A DNA stretch of 64,000 nt from Paenibacillus riograndensis SBR5. GTDB taxonomy: Bacteria > Bacillota > Bacilli > Paenibacillales > Paenibacillaceae. The stretch lies in contig NZ_LN831776.1 of assembly GCF_000981585.1 (NCBI RefSeq), positions 1,317,001-1,381,000 on the forward strand, in the 5' to 3' direction. The position numbers were made by a program, and so were the translations under genes. Positions 12,427 through 27,505 of the stretch are shown piece after piece. A model generated the notes under the pieces. It was not told the origin of the DNA and made no database searches. It worked only from the letters and a program-made list of their open reading frames with translations. Every line of letters starts with the position of its first letter. Position 1 is the stretch's first letter.

Positions 12427-13029
12427 TTATTCTTCCTCACCGGTGGAGCCATTCAGCACATCCGTACCCGGCATGGCATCAATAGGCGGCGCGGCCGGAT
12501 CGATGGCAGTTCCGGGCTGGAGCTCGTCGGCATCGGGCACATCCTCCAGCGGAAGCTCTTCTTGATCCACAAGCTCTTCATCCCCGGCGTAGTCAATGGC
12601 ACCGCCGGCCAGTCCGGCCGCACCGGCAGCGAATATCGCATCGGACTCCAGCACTTCATCCCGTTCGGATGGCGGCGGGGAAGTCATGCTCCGCACTCTG
12701 TCGGCCCTGCGTCCAAGCGCCGGTTCAGGGGCATTCAGGCCGATATCGGCAGCGAGAATAGGATCGCCCGTCAAAGCCGGATCGGAGCCGTCATCTGCAA
12801 CGCCATCCCAATCGACAGGCCTTTCGTGGGCCGGATCATGGCTGGCCAGTGCGGATTCCATAGGCCTTAAGTCCGCTCCGGCAGTTTCATCATCGGGGTT
12901 GTGCCGCGTGATCGTCCCCAGCGGCCGCAGCTCCTCCAGGGGAATGTCCTGCTCCGGGGAAACATCCCCCAGCTTGTTGTACCGCTCATATACAAAATCG
13001 GCTTCAGTTTTGTTGAATTCATTACCCAT
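12427..13029 (-). CDS. Hypothetical acidic low-complexity protein
   Basis: The 200-aa product starts MGNEFNKTEADFVYERYNKLGDV behind AAAAGGAG and is strongly acidic and Pro/Ala/Asp-rich throughout, with no membrane segment or signal peptide. The N-terminal ~35 residues look ordered and the rest disordered. A short hydrophobic Ala/Gly patch (FAAGAAGLAGGAIDYAG) lies near residue 140. I do not recognise a family. It lies upstream of the CLC gene on the same strand, but the CLC unit has its own promoter. Confidence 0.6.
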   Translation of the reverse strand: MGNEFNKTEADFVYERYNKLGDVSPEQDIPLEELRPLGTITRHNPDDETAGADLRPMESALASHDPAHERPVDWDGVADDGSDPALTGDPILAADIGLNAPEPALGRRADRVRSMTSPPPSERDEVLESDAIFAAGAAGLAGGAIDYAGDEELVDQEELPLEDVPDADELQPGTAIDPAAPPIDAMPGTDVLNGSTGEEE

Positions 13030-13292: not shown

Positions 13293-15191
13293 ATGAAGTT
13301 GCCATCAATGAAGGCGGCCGCAGCGATATTCATGCTGTTTCTGCTGATTTCCATAGTGCCTATCGGGATCGCAGTGCAATGGGGCGGCGGGGCAGGATTT
13401 TCTATACCGGACTGGGAAATGAAATGGGAGACTTCAGACGTATGCGATCCTGCGGCAGCAGCTGAAGCCCCTGACAGCGAATGGGTGCAAGCAGGCATGG
13501 ATTCAGTGCGGCCTGCGGCTCCGGCAGATGCTTCGGCAGTCTGGTTCCGTTTTCCCCTCCCGTTAACGGAAGAGCGCAACCCGGCCCTGTTGATTAATAA
13601 AGTCACCGGACATAACCTCAGGGCCTATGCGGATCATAAGCTTATCTATGAGTCGCAGGATTTGATGAATTATGATGAAAGAAAAGTGCTGATCCCCTTG
13701 TCCGGGACGGAGGGGCATTCCTGGTTATATCTATGGAGCAGCGGAGGCGGACAGGGCTTTGGAATTGAAGGGGAAATCACGGCAGGAAACTACGGGAAAC
13801 TGCTGGAGTTTTATGTAAAACAGAATTTGCCGGATATGGTGATTGGTGCGGCATTTCTATTTGTAGGTGCGGCACTTATGGGCTGTTTACTGTTTCTCAA
13901 GCTGGACTTTTTCAAAGGCGGTTTTTTCCTTGTCCTGGTTATAGTATCCTTCGGGGTTCTGTTTATCACCTATTCACCTTTTCTGCCAGTTATTTTGCAC
14001 ATCCCGGACCACTGGACCCAGATCGGCTTTGATCTGGCATTATTTACATTGCTGCCGTCGTTCACGATCTACTTTGAGCAGATTTTTGGCGCAGGCAAGC
14101 ACAGGGTAATCACGAAGCTGCGTAAATTCCAACTGGGCTATTCGTTATTCTGTCTGGTATTTCTCATCGTGAACGCTATGTTGTCTTACCGCCTGGACGG
14201 GCTGTATAGAATCGCTACCGTTGACTTTCTGGGCCTTCTGATGATGGCGCAGTTCATCTATTTACTGTTCGTGACGCTCGGAGCTGCGTTCAAAGGCAAT
14301 CGGGATGCCGTCATCTTTTCGGCCGGATTCTCTATATTTGCCTTATTGTCATTAACTGAGCTGATTCTCTACTACGCCAACAACAGCTACCACTTGCAGT
14401 GGTGGAAATGGGGAGTGATTGCGTTCGTGGCTTCGCTTATTCTCATTTTGGGCAGGAGATTTGCGGGCAATCATGAGCAGGTGCTCGAATATTCCCGTGA
14501 TCTGGAGAAATTCAATGACGACCTGCAGCGTTCTGAGAAAATGGAGATCATCAGCGAGCTTGCTGCTTCGGTGGCCCATGAGGTGCGCAATCCCCTGCAG
14601 GTGACCCGCGGATTCCTGCAGATCCTGGGGGAACGCTCTGATAAGAAGGAGAAGGAATACCTGCAGATGGCTATGGAGGAGCTTGACAGAGCCTCGCTCA
14701 TCATCACGGATTTTTTGACCTTTGCCAAGCCGGGGATGGATACGCTGGACAGATTTGAGGTGGAGGAGGAGCTGCGGCATGTCTCCGGCGTTCTGGTGCC
14801 GCTGGCTCATCTGCAAGGGGGGACCATTGAGCTTAACCTGGAGAGCGGGCTTCAGGTGCTCGGCAGCACCTCCAAGTTCAAACAGGCTTTTATCAATCTG
14901 ATCAAAAACGCTATTGAATCCCTGGAGGAAGATGGACAAATAACGGTTGCCGCCTGGAGATCGGGAGAGCACATCATCATCAGTGTCCGGGATAACGGGG
15001 AAGGGATGAAGATGAGCGAGCTGGCGCATCTGGGCGAACCTTACTATTCGAATAAAAAGAAGGGAACAGGCCTTGGACTTATGGTTACGTTCCGGATTAT
15101 TGAAGCAATGAACGGCTCCATTCAGTTTCAGAGCAGAAAGGGAGAAGGCACTGAGGTCATTGTGAAATTACCATCCGCCGCAAAAAAATAG
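13293..15191 (+). CDS. Sensor histidine kinase with extracellular domain and 7TM region (copy 1)
   Basis: The 632-aa kinase has an N-terminal signal/anchor helix and an extracellular beta-type domain (~35-170, with WVQAGM and VWFRFPLPL, as in 7TMR-DISM sensors). About seven membrane helices follow (~180-390), then HisKA with His429 in SVAHEVRNPLQVTRGFLQIL and an HATPase domain (NLIKNAIESL, DNGEGM, GTGLGLMV). The HEVRNPL type of H-box is that of KinB-like sporulation/phosphorelay kinases. No response regulator is adjacent. The next gene is a full-length paralogue. The start ATG has only a weak GAGGTG upstream. Confidence 0.88.
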   Translation: MKLPSMKAAAAIFMLFLLISIVPIGIAVQWGGGAGFSIPDWEMKWETSDVCDPAAAAEAPDSEWVQAGMDSVRPAAPADASAVWFRFPLPLTEERNPALLINKVTGHNLRAYADHKLIYESQDLMNYDERKVLIPLSGTEGHSWLYLWSSGGGQGFGIEGEITAGNYGKLLEFYVKQNLPDMVIGAAFLFVGAALMGCLLFLKLDFFKGGFFLVLVIVSFGVLFITYSPFLPVILHIPDHWTQIGFDLALFTLLPSFTIYFEQIFGAGKHRVITKLRKFQLGYSLFCLVFLIVNAMLSYRLDGLYRIATVDFLGLLMMAQFIYLLFVTLGAAFKGNRDAVIFSAGFSIFALLSLTELILYYANNSYHLQWWKWGVIAFVASLILILGRRFAGNHEQVLEYSRDLEKFNDDLQRSEKMEIISELAASVAHEVRNPLQVTRGFLQILGERSDKKEKEYLQMAMEELDRASLIITDFLTFAKPGMDTLDRFEVEEELRHVSGVLVPLAHLQGGTIELNLESGLQVLGSTSKFKQAFINLIKNAIESLEEDGQITVAAWRSGEHIIISVRDNGEGMKMSELAHLGEPYYSNKKKGTGLGLMVTFRIIEAMNGSIQFQSRKGEGTEVIVKLPSAAKK

Positions 15192-15298
15192 GAATTATTT
15201 TGTTTAATACCGTTTTTTTGAAGGGATGCGCTGTGACTGGAGCGAAGTACTACTAACAACAGAGCTAAGCTTCTGAAATTTTCTGCTGAGGTGCTTGC

Positions 15299-17215
15299 AT
15301 GCGCTTGTTCGCTAAAATTCTACATCTAACCATAGTTCTATTCGTACTTTGTACGGCCTGTGGCGCGTTCGAGGCCTCGGCAGCAGGCCGGCACGCCCCC
15401 CGGGAATTGACAAGCTGGCAGATGAGATGGGGAAGTCCGGACGGAGATACGGGGCAAGAGGTACCGCTTGGAGAGACTCAGGGCTGGATAAAGGTTGATG
15501 CCCGTCAGGGGACACCGGAGCTTCCCAAGGGAATATCCTCTGCATGGACGCGGATAACGCTGCCGGAGAGTCAATATACCTCGCCTGCGGTTTATATTAA
15601 GACGTTATATGCCCTGCATGTGAAGGTGTATGCGGGTGAACGTCTTATCTTTGAAGGCAGCCGCAGCTATATCCATGACAATTATTCATTGCTCATTCCG
15701 CTGAGTACCGAAGATCAGGGCACAACCCTATATATATGGACGGCAACCCTGCAGGACCGTATCGGGATTAAAGACAGAGTAGCCGTGGGCGAACACAGCA
15801 ATCTGCTTAAGGATTATTCGAAAAATGGACTTGCCGATATCGTTTTGGGCGGAGCCTTTCTGTTCGTGGCTCTCGTTTTGTTCGTATGCACCTTTTACCT
15901 GAGCAAGGAGTATTTCTCCATTGCGACCGCACTGTCCCTGGTGATAGCCTCCACGGGAGTCCTGTCCATCACCTATTCTCCTTTTACGTACACCTTCTTC
16001 AGTTATTTGGGTCCGCTTAGCGTCGTTTTTTTCGATCTGGCGCTGCTGTCGCTGCTCCCCGCATTAACCTTTTTGTTTGAGAAAATATTCGGCAGCGGCA
16101 AGTTCGCCATCATCCGGCGCTTCCGTAAATTCCAGGTAGCCTATTCATTGTTCTGCATAGCCTGTCTGATCGTGAACACCCTCTCAGGCAACCGGCTGGT
16201 GGAATTTTATTATGTCGTGTCCGCCACCATTGTCGGAGTCATTATGATTCTGCAATTCATCCTGCTGATTGCCTGTGTTATCCTCTTCTCGCTGCGTGGG
16301 AACAAGGATGCAATCACCTTTGCCATCGGTTTCGGAACTGCAGCTTTGACCGGAGCGGTTGAACTGGCCTGGTATTATTACCGCCAGGGCAATTATGATC
16401 TCATCTATTGGAAGTGGGCGCTGGTGGTGTTCATTCTGTCCTTGATCATCATACTGGGACGCCGTCTTGCCCATAACCATCAGCAGGTTGTCAAGTATTC
16501 ACGGGAACTGGAGCTCTTCAATAACGAACTGCAGCGTTCCGAAAAAATGGAAATCATCAGCGAGCTGGCCGCATCTGTTGCGCATGAGGTGCGCAATCCG
16601 CTTCAGGTGACAAGAGGGTTTCTGCAGCTGTTAAGCGAGAAGTCGAGCGGCGATGAGCGTAAATATTTGTCCATGGCCTTAAGCGAGCTGGACCGCGCAT
16701 CCAATATCATTACGGATTTTCTTACGTTCGCCAAACCTGAGTTCGAGAAGATCTCTCAGCTGAGCGTTCTGGATGAATGCAAGCATATCGAGAGCATTAT
16801 GCTCCCGCTGTGCCACTTGAACGGAGGCAAAATGGTGCTCGAGGTCACCGGGGATTTATGGGTAAAGGGCAATTCCTCCAAATTCAAGCAGGCTTTTATC
16901 AATATGATCAAGAACAGTATTGAGTCGCTCGGGGAGGATGGCAGCATTCATATTAAGGCATATGCCAAAGGAGATAAGGTGTTCATTCATATCAAGGATA
17001 ACGGGGCGGGTATGGACCCGGCAGTTCTGAGCAGGCTGGGTGAGCCTTATTTCTCTTCCAACAAAACAAAAGGTACAGGCCTTGGGCTGATGGTTACGTT
17101 CAGGATCATAGAGGCGATGGGGGGAGAGGTCCGCTTCATAAGCAGCAAAGGAGCCGGAACCGAGTCCATTACCATTCTGCCGTTGGCAGAAGCTCCGGAG
17201 GGTTCTGGCTCCTAA
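15299..17215 (+). CDS. Sensor histidine kinase with extracellular domain and 7TM region (copy 2)
   Basis: The 638-aa protein is a tandem paralogue of the preceding kinase: same order of N-terminal signal, extracellular domain (~30-170), seven helices, HisKA (SVAHEVRNPLQVTRGFLQLL) and HATPase (NMIKNSIESL, DNGAGM, GTGLGLMV). The kinase core is highly conserved between the copies, whereas the extracellular domain has diverged, which suggests different ligands feeding one phosphorelay. GAGGTG lies six bases before the ATG. It ends 21 bases from the 3' end of the convergent leader-peptide gene, with no terminator in between. Confidence 0.88.
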   Translation: MRLFAKILHLTIVLFVLCTACGAFEASAAGRHAPRELTSWQMRWGSPDGDTGQEVPLGETQGWIKVDARQGTPELPKGISSAWTRITLPESQYTSPAVYIKTLYALHVKVYAGERLIFEGSRSYIHDNYSLLIPLSTEDQGTTLYIWTATLQDRIGIKDRVAVGEHSNLLKDYSKNGLADIVLGGAFLFVALVLFVCTFYLSKEYFSIATALSLVIASTGVLSITYSPFTYTFFSYLGPLSVVFFDLALLSLLPALTFLFEKIFGSGKFAIIRRFRKFQVAYSLFCIACLIVNTLSGNRLVEFYYVVSATIVGVIMILQFILLIACVILFSLRGNKDAITFAIGFGTAALTGAVELAWYYYRQGNYDLIYWKWALVVFILSLIIILGRRLAHNHQQVVKYSRELELFNNELQRSEKMEIISELAASVAHEVRNPLQVTRGFLQLLSEKSSGDERKYLSMALSELDRASNIITDFLTFAKPEFEKISQLSVLDECKHIESIMLPLCHLNGGKMVLEVTGDLWVKGNSSKFKQAFINMIKNSIESLGEDGSIHIKAYAKGDKVFIHIKDNGAGMDPAVLSRLGEPYFSSNKTKGTGLGLMVTFRIIEAMGGEVRFISSKGAGTESITILPLAEAPEGSGS

Positions 17216-17236: not shown

Positions 17237-17476
17237 TTACCAGGTGCTGAGTGTGGTTAAGTCTGTCTTCATTACGCCTGATGCCGGACTGGGCGGGATA
17301 ACCAGATAGAACTCATTGGACGCTTCTTCAACAGTTCTGAGGGTAATATTGTCGGGAAGTTCAATGCCTAGCGCTTCTTGGAGGGCTGCCTTCGGATCTG
17401 TGAGTAATCTTTGCTTGAACCCCGGATCTTCCCATGCCTTTTGAATTACTTGATTTCGGAGAATTGCTTCTGACAA
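17237..17476 (-). CDS. NHLP-type leader peptide RiPP precursor with C-terminal Trp
   Basis: The 79-aa product starts at a TTG (17474-17476) six bases behind GGGAAGGGTG. Residues 13-32 (KAWEDPGFKQRLLTDPKAAL) match the nitrile-hydratase-like leader (NHLP) pattern known from RiPP precursors, as do GIELPDNITLRTVEE and the terminal FYLVIPP (56-62). A short tail SPASGVMKTDLTTLSTW follows and would be the core; cleavage after Ser-Gly (67) would leave twelve residues ending in Trp79. It has no Cys. It lies 83 bases downstream of an isoprenoid-synthase-fold gene on the same strand and has its own extended -10. The leader family is fairly sure, the modification is inferred. Confidence 0.8.
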   Translation of the reverse strand: MSEAILRNQVIQKAWEDPGFKQRLLTDPKAALQEALGIELPDNITLRTVEEASNEFYLVIPPSPASGVMKTDLTTLSTW

Positions 17477-17515
17477 AATAATCACCCTTCCCAAAATGGT
17501 TATATTTTCCTGATT

Positions 17516-17524
17516 AGTATAGCA
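17516..17524 (-). promoter_or_regulatory. Extended -10 promoter of the leader-peptide gene
   Basis: On the minus strand TGCTATACT forms an extended -10 about 40 bases before the TTG start. No strong -35 is present, as is usual for this class. Confidence 0.5.
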
Positions 17525-17559
17525 TAGCCCACTCTATTATTCTATATCCTATTTCCTAT

Positions 17560-18495
17560 TTACAGATTCATATGTTTGGACAACCAGTAACCCAGACCCC
17601 CGCCTTGCAAAAGCTGTTTTTCCGCTTCGATTGCTGCTGCCATCTGCTGCAGATTCCCGGCCATAAACTGATGGAAAGCGATGAGATGAGGGGCGTTCAG
17701 GCGGCAGTTTTCAAGCTTTTTGTGATTATCCAACGCCGTACCGGCATACGCAGCAAGCCCCCCTTTTGTAAAGATATAATCCTTGACCTGTGCTTTGGTA
17801 AGCGCAACCTGATCTATGCCTGTGTGGTGTCCGGCCAGGGACAGCAGGCAATTGTAGCTTCCTTCAGCAAGATCTTGCTCCCAATCCTCGTAGTCGTCCA
17901 GCATTTGCAGGGTAAGCAGTACGGTATGGAGAATATCTTCCGCTTCCGGAATCAGAGAAGCATTGCCGGTATGCAGCAGAATAGCTGTACTGGTAAGCTT
18001 CAGCGGACTGGCTTTGTGGGAGATTTTCAGCCGGTCATTCCTAAAATAATCTCCATGCGCCTCACCGGCCACACTCTCCGCCCACTCCAGAATATAGCGG
18101 TTAAAGCAGAGCCAGAAAAGGGACTCCGGCGGAAACAGCGGCCTGTACTTGTTCAGGAACTCAACATACAGCAGATTGGCCAGCGGCAGCATCCGGGATG
18201 CGCTGTTATCACTGTCCATCAGATCATCCTGAATGAAGAAATACAGCATGCAAAAAATATTGCCGGCCGACAGCCCGCGGGCTTCAGCCTCTGTCAGGCC
18301 GTAACCGTCCCTGAGCCAGAAGGGGAGCAGATAACTGATATAATTTTTGTGGCTTCCTGTGCTGAAAACGTTAAACTGTTCGAGATAGGCCATTCCTTGA
18401 ATGCGGAGAGAATCAGGAAATCCGGAAATCACACTGCTGCAGTCCTGAAATACCAAACGGAGCTCTTTGTCGTAATCATGCAGCCAATCCATCAT
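17560..18495 (-). CDS. Class I isoprenoid-synthase-fold enzyme, ComQ-like
   Basis: The 311-aa all-helical protein has both metal-binding motifs of class I prenyl/terpene synthases: DDLMD at 90-94 (context FFIQDDLMDSDNSA) and DDYEDWEQD at 200-208. Such enzymes bind a polyprenyl diphosphate through Mg2+. The length and the first motif resemble ComQ, which prenylates Trp in the ComX pheromone; unlike ComQ as I remember it, the second motif is complete. AGGAGG lies four bases before ATG 18495 (a second ATG follows directly). The next gene is a short peptide precursor ending in Trp, so a peptide prenyltransferase is plausible; a stand-alone terpene synthase is the alternative. Confidence 0.75.
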   Translation of the reverse strand: MMDWLHDYDKELRLVFQDCSSVISGFPDSLRIQGMAYLEQFNVFSTGSHKNYISYLLPFWLRDGYGLTEAEARGLSAGNIFCMLYFFIQDDLMDSDNSASRMLPLANLLYVEFLNKYRPLFPPESLFWLCFNRYILEWAESVAGEAHGDYFRNDRLKISHKASPLKLTSTAILLHTGNASLIPEAEDILHTVLLTLQMLDDYEDWEQDLAEGSYNCLLSLAGHHTGIDQVALTKAQVKDYIFTKGGLAAYAGTALDNHKKLENCRLNAPHLIAFHQFMAGNLQQMAAAIEAEKQLLQGGGLGYWLSKHMNL

Positions 18496-18623
18496 TTTGC
18501 CTCCTGTTTTCAATTTTTTTGATGCAGAGAGATATGTATTAGAATTAGGTAAATAATGGTTATCCGTGATGATTATAAGCTTCCTGGTCGTTGATTTCAA
18601 TCTTAATTCGGGGGAGATTCGAT

Positions 18624-20102: not shown

Positions 20103-20306
20103 GGGAGAAACAACGGCAGGAATGCCGTTGTTGGGGCGCTGGTGGCGGGGGCAGGGAGAAACAACGGTAGGAATGCCGTTGCAGGGGCGCTGGTGGCGGG
20201 GGCAGGGAGAAACAACAGCAGGAATGCCGTTGCTGGGGCTCCGGTGGCGGGGGCAGGGAGAAACAACAGCAGGAATGCCGTTGCTGGGGCTCCAGTGGCG
20301 ACCTCG
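20103..20306. repeat. Tandem array 1: four 51-bp hairpin units
   Basis: Units start at 20103, 20154, 20205 and 20256. Each begins GGGAGAAA, carries CAACGGCA-GGAA-TGCCGTTG or a close variant (8-bp stem, 4-base loop) and ends with a G-rich TGGTGGCGGGGGCA type segment. Changes between units are few and mostly keep the pairing or create one wobble/mismatch. The frames open across it are by-products of the period being a multiple of three. Confidence 0.9.
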
Positions 20307-20363
20307 GGGTTTTGGCTGATCTTACTGTATGCCCCTCATTTCAGCCGGAGATCCATTTGCGGC

Positions 20364-21222
20364 GAAATGAGAGGTACTTATACCTCACATTTGCGCGATT
20401 GGCCAGTGTGGGGAGAAATGAGAGGTGCTTATACCTCAGATTTGAGCGATTGGTCAGTGTGGGGAGAAAAGAGAGGTATTTATACCTCGGATTTGCGCGA
20501 TTGGCCAGTTTGGTGAGAAATGAAAGGTACTTATACCTCAGATTTGCCTGATTGGCCAGTGTGGGGAGAAATAAGAGGTATATATACCTCACATTTGAGC
20601 GATTGGCCAGTGTGGGGAGAAATGAGAGGTACTTATACCTCACATTTGCGCGATTGGCCAGTTTGATGAGAAATAAGAGGTACTTATACCTCAGATTTGA
20701 GCGATTGGCCAGTGTGGGGAGAAATGAGAGGCACTTATACCTCACATTTGCGCGATTGGTCAGTTTGGTGAGAAATGAGAGGTATTTATACCTCACATTT
20801 GCGCGATTGGCCAGTGTGGGGAGAAATGAGAGGTATTTATACCCCACATTTTCCTGATTGGCCAGTGTGGGGAGAAATGAGAGGTACTTATACCTCACAT
20901 TTGCGCGATTGGCCAGTGTGGGGAGAAATGAGAGGCACTTATACCTCACATTTGCGCGATTGGCCAGTGTGGGGAGAAATGAGAGGTACTTATACCTCAC
21001 ATTTTCCTGATTGGCCAGTGTGGGGAGAAATGAGAGGTACTTATACCTCACATTTGCGCGATTGGCCAGTGTGGGGAGAAATGAGAGGTACTTATACCTC
21101 AGATTTGCGCGATTGGTCAGTTTGGTGAGAAATGAAAGGTACTTATACCTCAGATTTGCGCGATTGGTCAGTTTGGTGAGAAATGAGAGGTACTTATACC
21201 TCACATTTGCGCGATTGGTCAG
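20364..21222. repeat. Tandem array 2: seventeen 51-bp hairpin units
   Basis: Units begin every 51 bases (20364, 20415, 20466 and so on to 21180). The consensus has GAAATGAGAGGTACTTA followed by TACCTCACATTTGCGCG and ATTGGCCAGTGTGGGGA. The GAGGTA-CTTA-TACCTC hairpin is present in all units; loop changes (CTTA, TTTA, TATA) and single arm changes occur. Long open frames on both strands (for example LRYKYLSFLPTLANRAN on the minus strand) are artefacts of the 51-base period: no ribosome site and no family resemblance. Confidence 0.95.
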
Positions 21223-21304
21223 CACACTGTGATAGTAAGCGGAGTTCTACAAGAAACTCGATTTTTGACAGTTCAGGCTTCAGAATAAGGGGGGCCTAAT
21301 CGAA

Positions 21305-21425
21305 GAGCGCCGGCGGAGGCAACGGGATGAAACAACGGCAGAAATGCCGTTGTTAGGGCGCCCCGGAGGCAACGGGATGAAACAACGGCAAAAATGCCGT
21401 TGTTAGGGCGCCGGCGGAGGCAACG
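21305..21425. repeat. Tandem array 3: two 50/51-bp hairpin units plus a partial
   Basis: The segment GGAGGCAACGGGATGAAA recurs at about 21316 and 21366 and begins again at about 21417. Each full unit contains CAACGGCA-GAAA- or CAACGGCA-AAAA-TGCCGTTG, the same arms as array 1, followed by TTAGGGCGCC. Confidence 0.85.
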
Positions 21426-25199: not shown

Positions 25200-26846
25200 A
25201 TGAATATCAAAGCAACCGCGGATGACAAAGTAATAACCATTTACAGAAACATATCTTTGTCCCTCACATCGCTGATGTACCTCTTGGACCATACGGGGCC
25301 TTCCGTCTTTTATAAATCCCTATTAATCATGGTGTTATTCTTATTTGCACAAGTGTTCACGATTTATTACCGGAGGTTGCGTAAATGGCCGCGTGTTCTT
25401 ATGCTTGCCGTAAGCATTGAGATGGCGGGGCTTATAGTACTCACATTGTTTACTGGCGGGTATGACAGCTCGTTCAAATTGTATGTCCTGAATCCTGTCC
25501 TCATCGCGGCAGGTTCCTTGTCTATTTATTTCAGCTGGAGCTTGTTATTCAGCTATTTTGGTATTATTTCCGTATTTTGTTATTTTTTCTTGAACTCTTC
25601 CGGAAAAACTTTCGCCGAAGCCGTGCTTGACAATGGTAACCTGTTTCTAGTCATGGTACTTACGGTTATAGTTATGCAGATGGTTAATCGGATCAAGCGG
25701 CAGCGGGAAGCGGCCAATGCACGGACGAATGAAACCATGGAGCATATTAAGTCGCTCTATCACATTGTGGAAACCTCAAGCCAGCATGATTTCATGAACA
25801 TCGGCCAGGTTATTACGGATTATGTGGTGAAGCTTACCAAGCTGGACAAAGCGTTGTTCTGGTTCGCCCAAAAGAGCGGCGAGCCCGCGCCACAGAGCCG
25901 GCAGACTGGCTGGCATCAGGAGGAGGAACGGTTTCTTTTTGCAGAGCTTGAGAAGCATGAGCATGAATGGCGGCTGCAGCGTGAACCGGTGTTCAAGAGC
26001 CTACCCGGACTCGGAGACTTTCTGCTTATGCCTGTAAGAATGAGTACGCGGTTTGTCGGTATGATCGGCGTAAAGCTGGAAGCATCGGAAGGCCTGGAAG
26101 GACGCAGGTGGTACATCCAGCAGCTGATGTTTCTCTCGGAGCTGAGCGCGATTATCCTTGAACGGCATGAACTTGGTGTCATTGAGAACCGGCTGATTAT
26201 CACGAACGAACAGAACCGGATTGCCGACGAGATGCACGACAGCGTATCGCAGAGCCTGTTCGGGATAGTCTATGCGACTCATTCGCTTAAGCAGACATGG
26301 CGGAAGATGTCCGAATCCGAGCTGGAGGAGCAAATTGAACTGATTCATGATTCAGCCACCAAGGTAGCTAAGGAATTGCGCATTACCATCTACAGCCTCA
26401 GCTCCAAAAAGAGCGGCGGCCCGACATGGCTGGGTATGGTCAGATCACATCTGAAAAGCTTGTCCAGGCTGAACGATGTAGAAATTGAGTTAAAAATAAC
26501 GGGGGATGATTTCAGTCTCCCTTATCCTTACCACAAGGCGCTCTTCCGGATTATATCCGAAGCGACAGGCAATGCCATTCGACATGGTGCTGCCAGCCGG
26601 GTGGATGTCGAACTGTCACTTAAGCCGAAATGGATCAGACTTTCGATAGTCGATGATGGTGTCGGTTTCGATACTGATCTGCTCTGGACCGAATCCGAGG
26701 ATAACACCGGCGGACTAGGCATGAAGAATATGCAATATTTGGCACAGTCTTTAGGCGGTGACTTCCAGTTGTCCAGCAGTGAGAATGCAGGCACCAGAAT
26801 TTTGATTTCGATACCTGTCGGCGTGGCTGAACTAAAAAATGCATAA
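25200..26846 (+). CDS. NarL/DegS-type sensor histidine kinase
   Basis: The 548-aa kinase has about five or six N-terminal membrane helices (residues ~15-165), a short coiled segment, a GAF-like domain (~185-325), a HisKA_3 dimerisation segment with the phospho-His in NRIADEMHDSVSQSLFGIVYATHSL, and an HATPase (ATGNAIRHG, VDDGVGFD, GGLGMKNM). The ligand is unknown. The adjacent LuxR-type regulator 23 bases downstream is the obvious partner. The pair lies directly before the exopolysaccharide locus and could control it, but no direct evidence is visible. Confidence 0.9.
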   Translation: MNIKATADDKVITIYRNISLSLTSLMYLLDHTGPSVFYKSLLIMVLFLFAQVFTIYYRRLRKWPRVLMLAVSIEMAGLIVLTLFTGGYDSSFKLYVLNPVLIAAGSLSIYFSWSLLFSYFGIISVFCYFFLNSSGKTFAEAVLDNGNLFLVMVLTVIVMQMVNRIKRQREAANARTNETMEHIKSLYHIVETSSQHDFMNIGQVITDYVVKLTKLDKALFWFAQKSGEPAPQSRQTGWHQEEERFLFAELEKHEHEWRLQREPVFKSLPGLGDFLLMPVRMSTRFVGMIGVKLEASEGLEGRRWYIQQLMFLSELSAIILERHELGVIENRLIITNEQNRIADEMHDSVSQSLFGIVYATHSLKQTWRKMSESELEEQIELIHDSATKVAKELRITIYSLSSKKSGGPTWLGMVRSHLKSLSRLNDVEIELKITGDDFSLPYPYHKALFRIISEATGNAIRHGAASRVDVELSLKPKWIRLSIVDDGVGFDTDLLWTESEDNTGGLGMKNMQYLAQSLGGDFQLSSSENAGTRILISIPVGVAELKNA

Positions 26847-26869
26847 ACTTTAGGCAGGAGGTCATTCTA

Positions 26870-27505
26870 GTGAAAATCGTCATCGTTGATGATCACCCAT
26901 TGGTTAGAAGAGGACTCGCGGCGGTCATTTCTATGCAGTCCAATCTGCATTTTGCCGGCGAAGCAACGAATGGCCAAGAAGCGCTTATGATCATTGAAGA
27001 GACGCAGCCTGATCTTGTGCTTATTGATCTTAAGCTGGCCGATGAATCAGGCCTGGATGTGATCAAAGCAGCGCGTTCGCGCGGACTCATCAGCAAGTTT
27101 ATCCTGCTGACCTCTTCGGCGAGCCGGGAGGATTTTTTGAAGGCGGAAGAAGTACTGGTTGATGGTTATGTGCTGAAAGAGGCGCTGCCGGAAGAACTGC
27201 TGTTTGCCATTCAACTCGTTCATAAGGGCCGCAAGTATTATGACCCCGGCTTGATGGAAGACAAGATGCGGATGAGCGGCAACAGTCCAACCGACGAATT
27301 GACTCCGAAAGAAAAGGAAGTACTGATCGAGCTTGGGCAGGGGGCCAGCAACCGCGAAATCGCCTCACGGCTGTTCATCAGTGAATTCACGGTCAAGAAG
27401 CATGTCAGCCAGATTCTGGCGAAGCTTCAGGTGGCAGACCGTACACAGGCCGCACTCTACGCCAACGCCGTAGGGCTCACAAAATACGAAATGTCATACG
27501 ATTAG
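26870..27505 (+). CDS. NarL/FixJ-family response regulator
   Basis: The 211-aa product starts at a GTG behind GGCAGGAGG. The receiver domain shows IVDDHPLVRRG with the acidic pair, the phospho-Asp in LVLIDLKLADESG, Thr/Ser in LLTSSAS, and Lys in YVLKEA. The C-terminal LuxR-type helix-turn-helix reads LTPKEKEVLIELGQGASNREIASRLFISEFTVKKHVSQILAKLQVADRTQAALYA. It is the partner of the preceding kinase and is followed by a strong terminator. Confidence 0.93.
   Translation: MKIVIVDDHPLVRRGLAAVISMQSNLHFAGEATNGQEALMIIEETQPDLVLIDLKLADESGLDVIKAARSRGLISKFILLTSSASREDFLKAEEVLVDGYVLKEALPEELLFAIQLVHKGRKYYDPGLMEDKMRMSGNSPTDELTPKEKEVLIELGQGASNREIASRLFISEFTVKKHVSQILAKLQVADRTQAALYANAVGLTKYEMSYD

Follow-up and report, generated by a model that had tools for sequence, protein, structure and literature searches.

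What does an enzyme with the motifs of a class I isoprenoid synthase do beside a small peptide that has an NHLP-type leader and ends in tryptophan? The question is raised by a gene pair in a 64,000-nucleotide stretch of the Paenibacillus riograndensis SBR5 genome (assembly GCF_000981585.1, contig NZ_LN831776.1, positions 1,317,001 to 1,381,000; hereafter the window, to which coordinates refer unless a locus is named). The original prediction, made from the sequence of this stretch, was that the enzyme prenylates the tryptophan of the peptide and so gives a lipidated signal or antibiotic through a new pairing of leader and enzyme. Judged by the genes it contains, by motifs that fall at corresponding residue numbers and by the tail of its peptide, the locus is a PalQ-PalX-PalP locus, and the pairing is not new, having been published in 2023 for Paenibacillus alvei (PMC10853753). 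The chemistry was thus already known; the new part would be a signal role for PalX and a receptor role for PalP, on which a partial literature search, no proof of absence from print, found nothing as to PalX function or what PalP senses. We consider it likely that the locus encodes PalQXP, a lipidated peptide pheromone system feeding the sporulation phosphorelay.

The PalQ-PalX-PalP locus

Both genes of the pair are present as originally described. The palQ homologue encodes 311 amino acids (17560-18495, minus strand), and the palX homologue, encoding 79 amino acids, lies downstream on the same strand (17237-17476) with a spacing of 83 bp. palX has a TTG start behind GGAAGGGTG and its product ends in ...DLTTLSTW. 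Residues 6-73 match the TIGR03793 model (leader_NHLP) with 68.7 bits (E 3e-19; curated cut-off 50.9), the only TIGR03793 match in the genome of 7,919,576 bases (7.92 Mb). Overlooked in the original prediction were two histidine kinase genes on the plus strand (13293-17215), convergent with palQX. The end of palP1 (15299-17215), which encodes the proposed receptor, is only 21 bp from palX; palP2 (13293-15191) encodes a paralogue 46% identical to PalP1.

The enzyme carries the two predicted aspartate-rich motifs, D90-D91-L-M-D94 and D200-D201-Y-E-D204-W-E-Q-D208. In an alignment of PalQ relatives D94, Q197, D200, D201, D204 and D208 are invariant, with Q197, D200 and D204 kept in 83 out of 83 relatives. 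No Pfam family matches PalQ above its cut-off; the sole match is DUF5685 (14.8 bits against a cut-off of 26.7). A predicted model (predicted local distance difference test score, pLDDT, 89.6) has the all-helical fold of trans-isoprenyl diphosphate synthases (trans-IDS), and its best structural matches are polyprenyl synthases. The fold assignment rests on this predicted model because the PalQ profile reaches solved farnesyl synthases only at an E-value of 0.22 or worse. Motifs, invariant residues and model together point to a predicted tryptophan prenyltransferase with a class I isoprenoid-synthase fold.

Of 392 genomes sampled from the order, a profile search found the enzyme in 272, spanning 23 of 49 genera; it is also present in 91/150 relatives. 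The nearest named relative among the best 80 of 236 confirmed, a list that may omit records closely matching the window's genome, is Paenibacillus jilunlii, with an enzyme 93% identical. In five genomes (G171, G365, G009, G019 and G087) PalQ was matched as two pieces.

The association of the enzyme with its neighbours is very consistent. An NHLP peptide is found at the enzyme in 159 of 161 loci and a PalP-like kinase in 158, the window included in both counts; these are counts of loci, and many genomes are counted twice (L031-L110 and L111-L190). Co-occurrence of enzyme and peptide, proposed earlier as a check, is therefore the rule, and the peptide gene is linked to the enzyme. Of the two loci lacking the peptide, one stops at a contig end (L135), and in the other (L155) neither partner gene lies within 6 kb of the enzyme. 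The peptide is on the same strand as the enzyme in 158 loci (the exception is L092), and the kinase is on the opposite strand in 157/158. Among 20 further genomes from nine genera, chosen from weak enzyme hits of the 392-genome profile search, 19 have the peptide and one has none within flanks of 1.5 kb (L252). Homologues without a peptide gene, which the original prediction would have taken as evidence against it, do exist, yet they are rare: L155 among the 161 loci and L252 among the 20 genomes. These two PalQ homologues (L155:6001-6930, from P. nasutitermitis, and L252, from G357) have no palX or palP nearby. Where examined, the enzyme is nearly always found with peptide and kinase; if the signal is shared, it bears on development in a large bacterial group.

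Prenylation and the position of the tryptophan

The trio in P. alvei comprises the PalP kinase, the PalX NHLP precursor and the PalQ prenyltransferase. According to the available part of the 2023 study, P. alvei PalQ adds C5, C10 or C15 to PalX in vitro, the site being indole C3 of the C-terminal tryptophan as seen by nuclear magnetic resonance on the core peptide (PMC10853753). PalQ prefers full-length PalX over the core at limiting substrate and rejects C-terminal alanine extensions, and cell lysate cuts PalX at T72|D73 to release the core DNVRRFFW (PMC10853753). Prenylation, the leader effect and cutting by cell lysate are thus demonstrations by others; PalP itself is not studied in the main text of that paper, as far as the available part goes. 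A 2026 review, likewise available in part, classes PalQ as a trans-IDS-like tryptophan prenyltransferase (PMC13290415).

The window resembles this system in its gene trio, a precursor of about 80 residues with an NHLP leader, a C-terminal tryptophan, a T|D junction and an 8-residue core. The numbers of Q197, D200 and D204 are equal in the two enzymes, and the first aspartate-rich motif is numbered D90/D94 in the window and D89/D93 in P. alvei. It differs in having two tandem kinases and in its core, predicted to be DLTTLSTW (17237-17263 with the stop codon, minus strand), with a register assigned by analogy with P. alvei PalX (PMC10853753): the tail, KT|DLTTLSTW, shares with it both the T|D step and the length of the core. 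Of 104 distinct tails, 18 have T followed by D at the junction places, and 52 have T, S or A followed by D, N or E.

Across 115 distinct tails the tryptophan is the last residue in 90 and is followed by one residue in 19 and by two in 4. All 113 distinct tails readable to the stop thus have it within their last three residues; an invariant tryptophan was named in the original prediction as supporting evidence. Two tails fall outside this count: one is cut off by the end of its contig (L168), and the other belongs to a degraded, palX-like leader fragment (L157:6930-7073), the sole peptide-like open reading frame (ORF) without tryptophan, which lies next to an intact palX. Multiple palX copies also occur: three at the palQ of L098, and two in P. 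endophyticus (L179), where the second palX and a second kinase lie downstream.

In the 19 weak-hit genomes with a peptide, the position of the tryptophan ranges from the last residue (7/19) to the seventh from the C-terminus. It shifts repeatedly along the PalQ tree of 90 distinct rows; the close tree neighbours P. oralis and P. macerans, for example, have one and two residues after the tryptophan, respectively. Because trailing residues vary across the tree, these sequences make it unlikely that every family member obeys the strict terminal-tryptophan rule of P. alvei PalQ, unless a trimming step shortens the tails beforehand. Judging by this variation, some naturally occurring relatives of PalQ may act on an internal tryptophan, which would widen the use of these enzymes for peptide lipidation.

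Two points speak against reading the window by way of P. alvei. Many relatives have one to six residues after the tryptophan, whereas P. alvei PalQ rejected alanine additions at the C-terminus in vitro. The likeness to P. alvei PalQ (K4ZRG6) is drawn from its published description rather than from a sequence alignment, and neither of two overlapping samples, of 392 and 394 genomes, contained the P. alvei core pattern DNVRRFFW. Set against these are the linkage in 159/161 loci and 19/20 weak-hit genomes, the 113 tails with tryptophan, the predicted fold and the in vitro result for P. alvei (PMC10853753, available part). On balance, the proposed prenylation of an NHLP-led precursor is well supported, and PalQ very probably prenylates the tryptophan of PalX.

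A candidate signal and its proposed receptor kinase

Our comparison, based on gene linkage, the near-C-terminal tryptophan, the predicted fold and the nearest kinase type, yields a candidate mature peptide, receptor, receptor region and output pathway. PalQ would bind the NHLP leader of PalX and attach a prenyl chain, of C5-C15 in the case of P. alvei, to indole C3 of the C-terminal tryptophan, producing a pyrroloindole. A cell protease would then free the short core, predicted to be DLTTLSTW, and the lipidated peptide would exit the cell and be sensed by PalP1, a receptor kinase with seven transmembrane helices (7TM). The KinB-like kinase half of PalP1 would most likely feed the Spo0F/Spo0B/Spo0A phosphorelay. 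From the core onwards, that is for export, sensing by PalP1 and phosphorelay output, these are steps that we infer.

The sensor of PalP1 is predicted to consist of a jelly-roll ectodomain and a 7TM membrane region like that of G-protein-coupled receptors (GPCRs), joined to the kinase domain; PalP is a kinase with a HisKA domain. The GPCR matches lie near the range in which helical bundles match without kinship, and many GPCRs score nearly alike. The best Foldseek match of the sensor is human WLS (E 1.3e-6, root-mean-square deviation 15), and we do not accept kinship with it.

The original prediction left the choice between signal and antibiotic open, and the constant partner kinase favours a signal. 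A prenylated antimicrobial ribosomally synthesized and post-translationally modified peptide (RiPP), with PalP as an immunity or stress sensor, would fit the usual role of NHLP leaders in making natural products. Moreover, of the prenyl lengths that PalQ was used to add to antimicrobial peptides, C10 (geranylation) yielded the most active products (PMC13290415, available part). We think it unlikely: the locus is constantly partnered by a kinase, the membrane region of this kinase tracks the tail, no immunity gene or dedicated transporter was seen among the neighbours listed and scanned, and the genome has no match to the C39 peptidase model. A peptidase or peptide exporter was likewise not seen among these neighbours, as originally stated for the adjacent genes; this lack also bears on the export step of the pheromone proposal, against which it counts together with the observations on sensing and output given below. 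C39 peptidases/transporters are common, not universal, in genomes with NHLP-leader RiPP precursors. The Peptidase_C39 model had zero matches in the whole genome and was positive in 8/14 control genomes, and export via a C39 peptidase/transporter was rejected on this basis.

Which kinase, if any, senses the peptide was judged from genomes without palQ, from a kinase tree and from distances. PalP-like kinases are retained in 21/23 genomes lacking palQ (a subset of those scored palQ-less in the 150- and 392-genome searches), and at 20 of these 21 kinase loci, G046 being left out, neither an NHLP peptide nor PalQ is present. One such genome (G004, L222) has two palP-like kinases, which are related to the two kinases of a different species group, without palQ or palX, and is possibly signal-blind or listening only. 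The kinases thus need not serve only the PalX peptide. These observations would suit a reading in which sensing falls to PalP2 alone or to neither kinase and the linkage reflects an older shared role. The kinase tree argues the other way as regards PalP1. In the window's group, none of the 26 rows of its clade comes from a palQ-less genome, as against seven such genomes in the palP2 clade (30 rows). These seven group together as a clade of their own, so a single event may account for them; the remaining 13 palQ-less kinase rows, two of them from G004, fall in other clades. The tree used ORFs of at least 550 amino acids from L092-L190, where a score of at least 150 bits was also required, and from L222-L241, leaving out L241; loci with split or cut second kinases (L118, L129, L134) count as single, and L222 has a masked stretch.

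Distances were compared as well, with kinase and PalQ distances removed. In the window's group the divergence of the tail correlates with that of the PalP1 membrane region (r 0.48, n = 23; r 0.40, n = 45), best among the kinase regions, and in a separate set the correlation is 0.15 (n = 68, p 0.005). The sets of 45 and 68 were freed of identical PalQ rows, and the former overlaps the set of 23. For PalP2, absent from the separate-set comparison, the values are 0.07 and 0.16 for the membrane region and 0.25 and 0.26 for the ectodomain, the latter in keeping with sensing by PalP2. For the PalP1 ectodomain they are 0.28 and 0.17 in the window's group and -0.02 in the separate set; the highest correlation of the tail there is with its own leader (0.30), above PalP1. 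Partial Mantel tests are, moreover, too liberal on trees. The sequences thus hint that tail divergence tracks the PalP1 membrane region, weakly outside the window's group. We give sensing by PalP2 or by neither kinase little credence, and hold with moderate confidence that the PalX peptide is a signal acting through PalP1.

As to the output, the kinase halves of both PalP1 and PalP2 have the sporulation kinase KinB (3d36) as their best solved-structure match, ahead by about 80 bits. Of three other kinases of the genome used as controls, two prefer ZraS and one prefers KinB (L244), so KinB likeness is not unique to PalP. With NCBIfam models, AtoS ranks first for both kinases; KinD takes second place for PalP1 and third place for PalP2, and no model reaches its cut-off. 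The members of the phosphorelay are well conserved in 1,460 Paenibacillus genomes, 92% of which have a Spo0B with a membrane domain (PMC12826061, available part). No receiver domain was found in the window between 11 and 25 kb. At 25200-27505, 8.4 kb upstream of palQ, the window has a HisKA_3 kinase (548 amino acids) directly followed by a LuxR-type regulator (211 amino acids; 26870-27505), the nearest receiver found. Receiver hits occur in 20/161 loci, a count that is too low given that 91/161 loci extend less than 5.9 kb upstream, and in 12 of the 20 the receiver is 5.0-5.9 kb upstream of palQ. Because such a two-component pair recurs 5-8 kb upstream of palQ, we lower the odds of the phosphorelay and regard it as a tentative output, a little short of an even chance. 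In L234, which lacks palQ, the kinase is likewise followed by a pair of this kind. A Spo0A box upstream of palQ was also considered and rejected, as there is no excess of such boxes: the 48 sequences scored hold 6 sites, against a mean of 5.0 after mononucleotide shuffling.

Several other features surround the trio. A sigma-A-like promoter, TTGAAA-17-TATAAT, lies upstream of palQX (18572-18600, minus strand), and by inspection of five rows it has a very similar counterpart 5' of palQ in L111 and L113-L115. Before palP2 there is a conserved protein of about 200 amino acids without a Pfam match (12427-13029), also found before the kinase of a palQ-less genome (L234:3883-4545). Three tandem arrays of 50-51-bp units (3.7, 16.8 and 2.4 copies) sit at 20103-21425 between a Gfo/Idh gene and a GH20 gene, the largest (20364-21222) being open in several frames.

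Comparison with ComQXPA and yeast a-factor

The features of ComQXPA compared here are in part general background. Like the window, ComQXPA of Bacillus subtilis has an isoprenoid-synthase-fold enzyme acting on a peptide tryptophan and an adjacent membrane kinase (PMC4008528, available part). In contrast, the window has an NHLP leader, a terminal tryptophan, a convergent kinase, a predicted jelly-roll and 7TM sensor and no adjacent ComA-like regulator. It is very unlikely that the locus is ComQXPA or works as such with the distant LuxR-type regulator as its output. The similar enzyme fold, the tryptophan-bearing peptide, the receptor kinase and the receivers upstream of palQ would fit, but the LuxR-type regulator lies directly behind its own HisKA_3 kinase whereas PalP has HisKA, and PalQ clusters apart from ComQ with an identity of at most 25% (PMC10853753, available part). 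Membership was rejected based on the lack of an adjacent ComA-type regulator and on the orientation of the kinases, which are encoded on the strand opposite palQX, in the window as in 157/158 loci with a kinase. An ordinary isoprenyl diphosphate or terpene synthase with an unrelated peptide neighbour is barely credible: both aspartate-rich motifs and the polyprenyl-synthase fold of the model would suit it, but no Pfam family scores above cut-off, all readable tails have tryptophan, the P. alvei counterpart prenylates its peptide (PMC10853753) and linkage in 159/161 loci excludes a chance pairing.

For the lipidated pheromone that we favour, a broader view is possible, if rather doubtful. The system may parallel, in bacteria, the prenylated-pheromone system of yeast: a repurposed isoprenoid synthase would make the lipidated tryptophan peptide, and a GPCR-like 7TM, KinB-like kinase reading it would bring cell density directly into the Spo0A phosphorelay. 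The tryptophan register would have drifted from the C-terminus, its place in P. alvei, to seven residues inside, toward ComX, so that the family would span the gap between PalQ and ComQ. KinB is the closest solved kinase domain, whereas the sensor half of PalP is a predicted jelly roll with 7TM. Yeast a-factor is a cysteine farnesyl methyl ester sensed by a 7TM receptor with a G protein, and the likeness is one of analogy only: cysteine and a G protein in yeast, tryptophan and a histidine kinase here.
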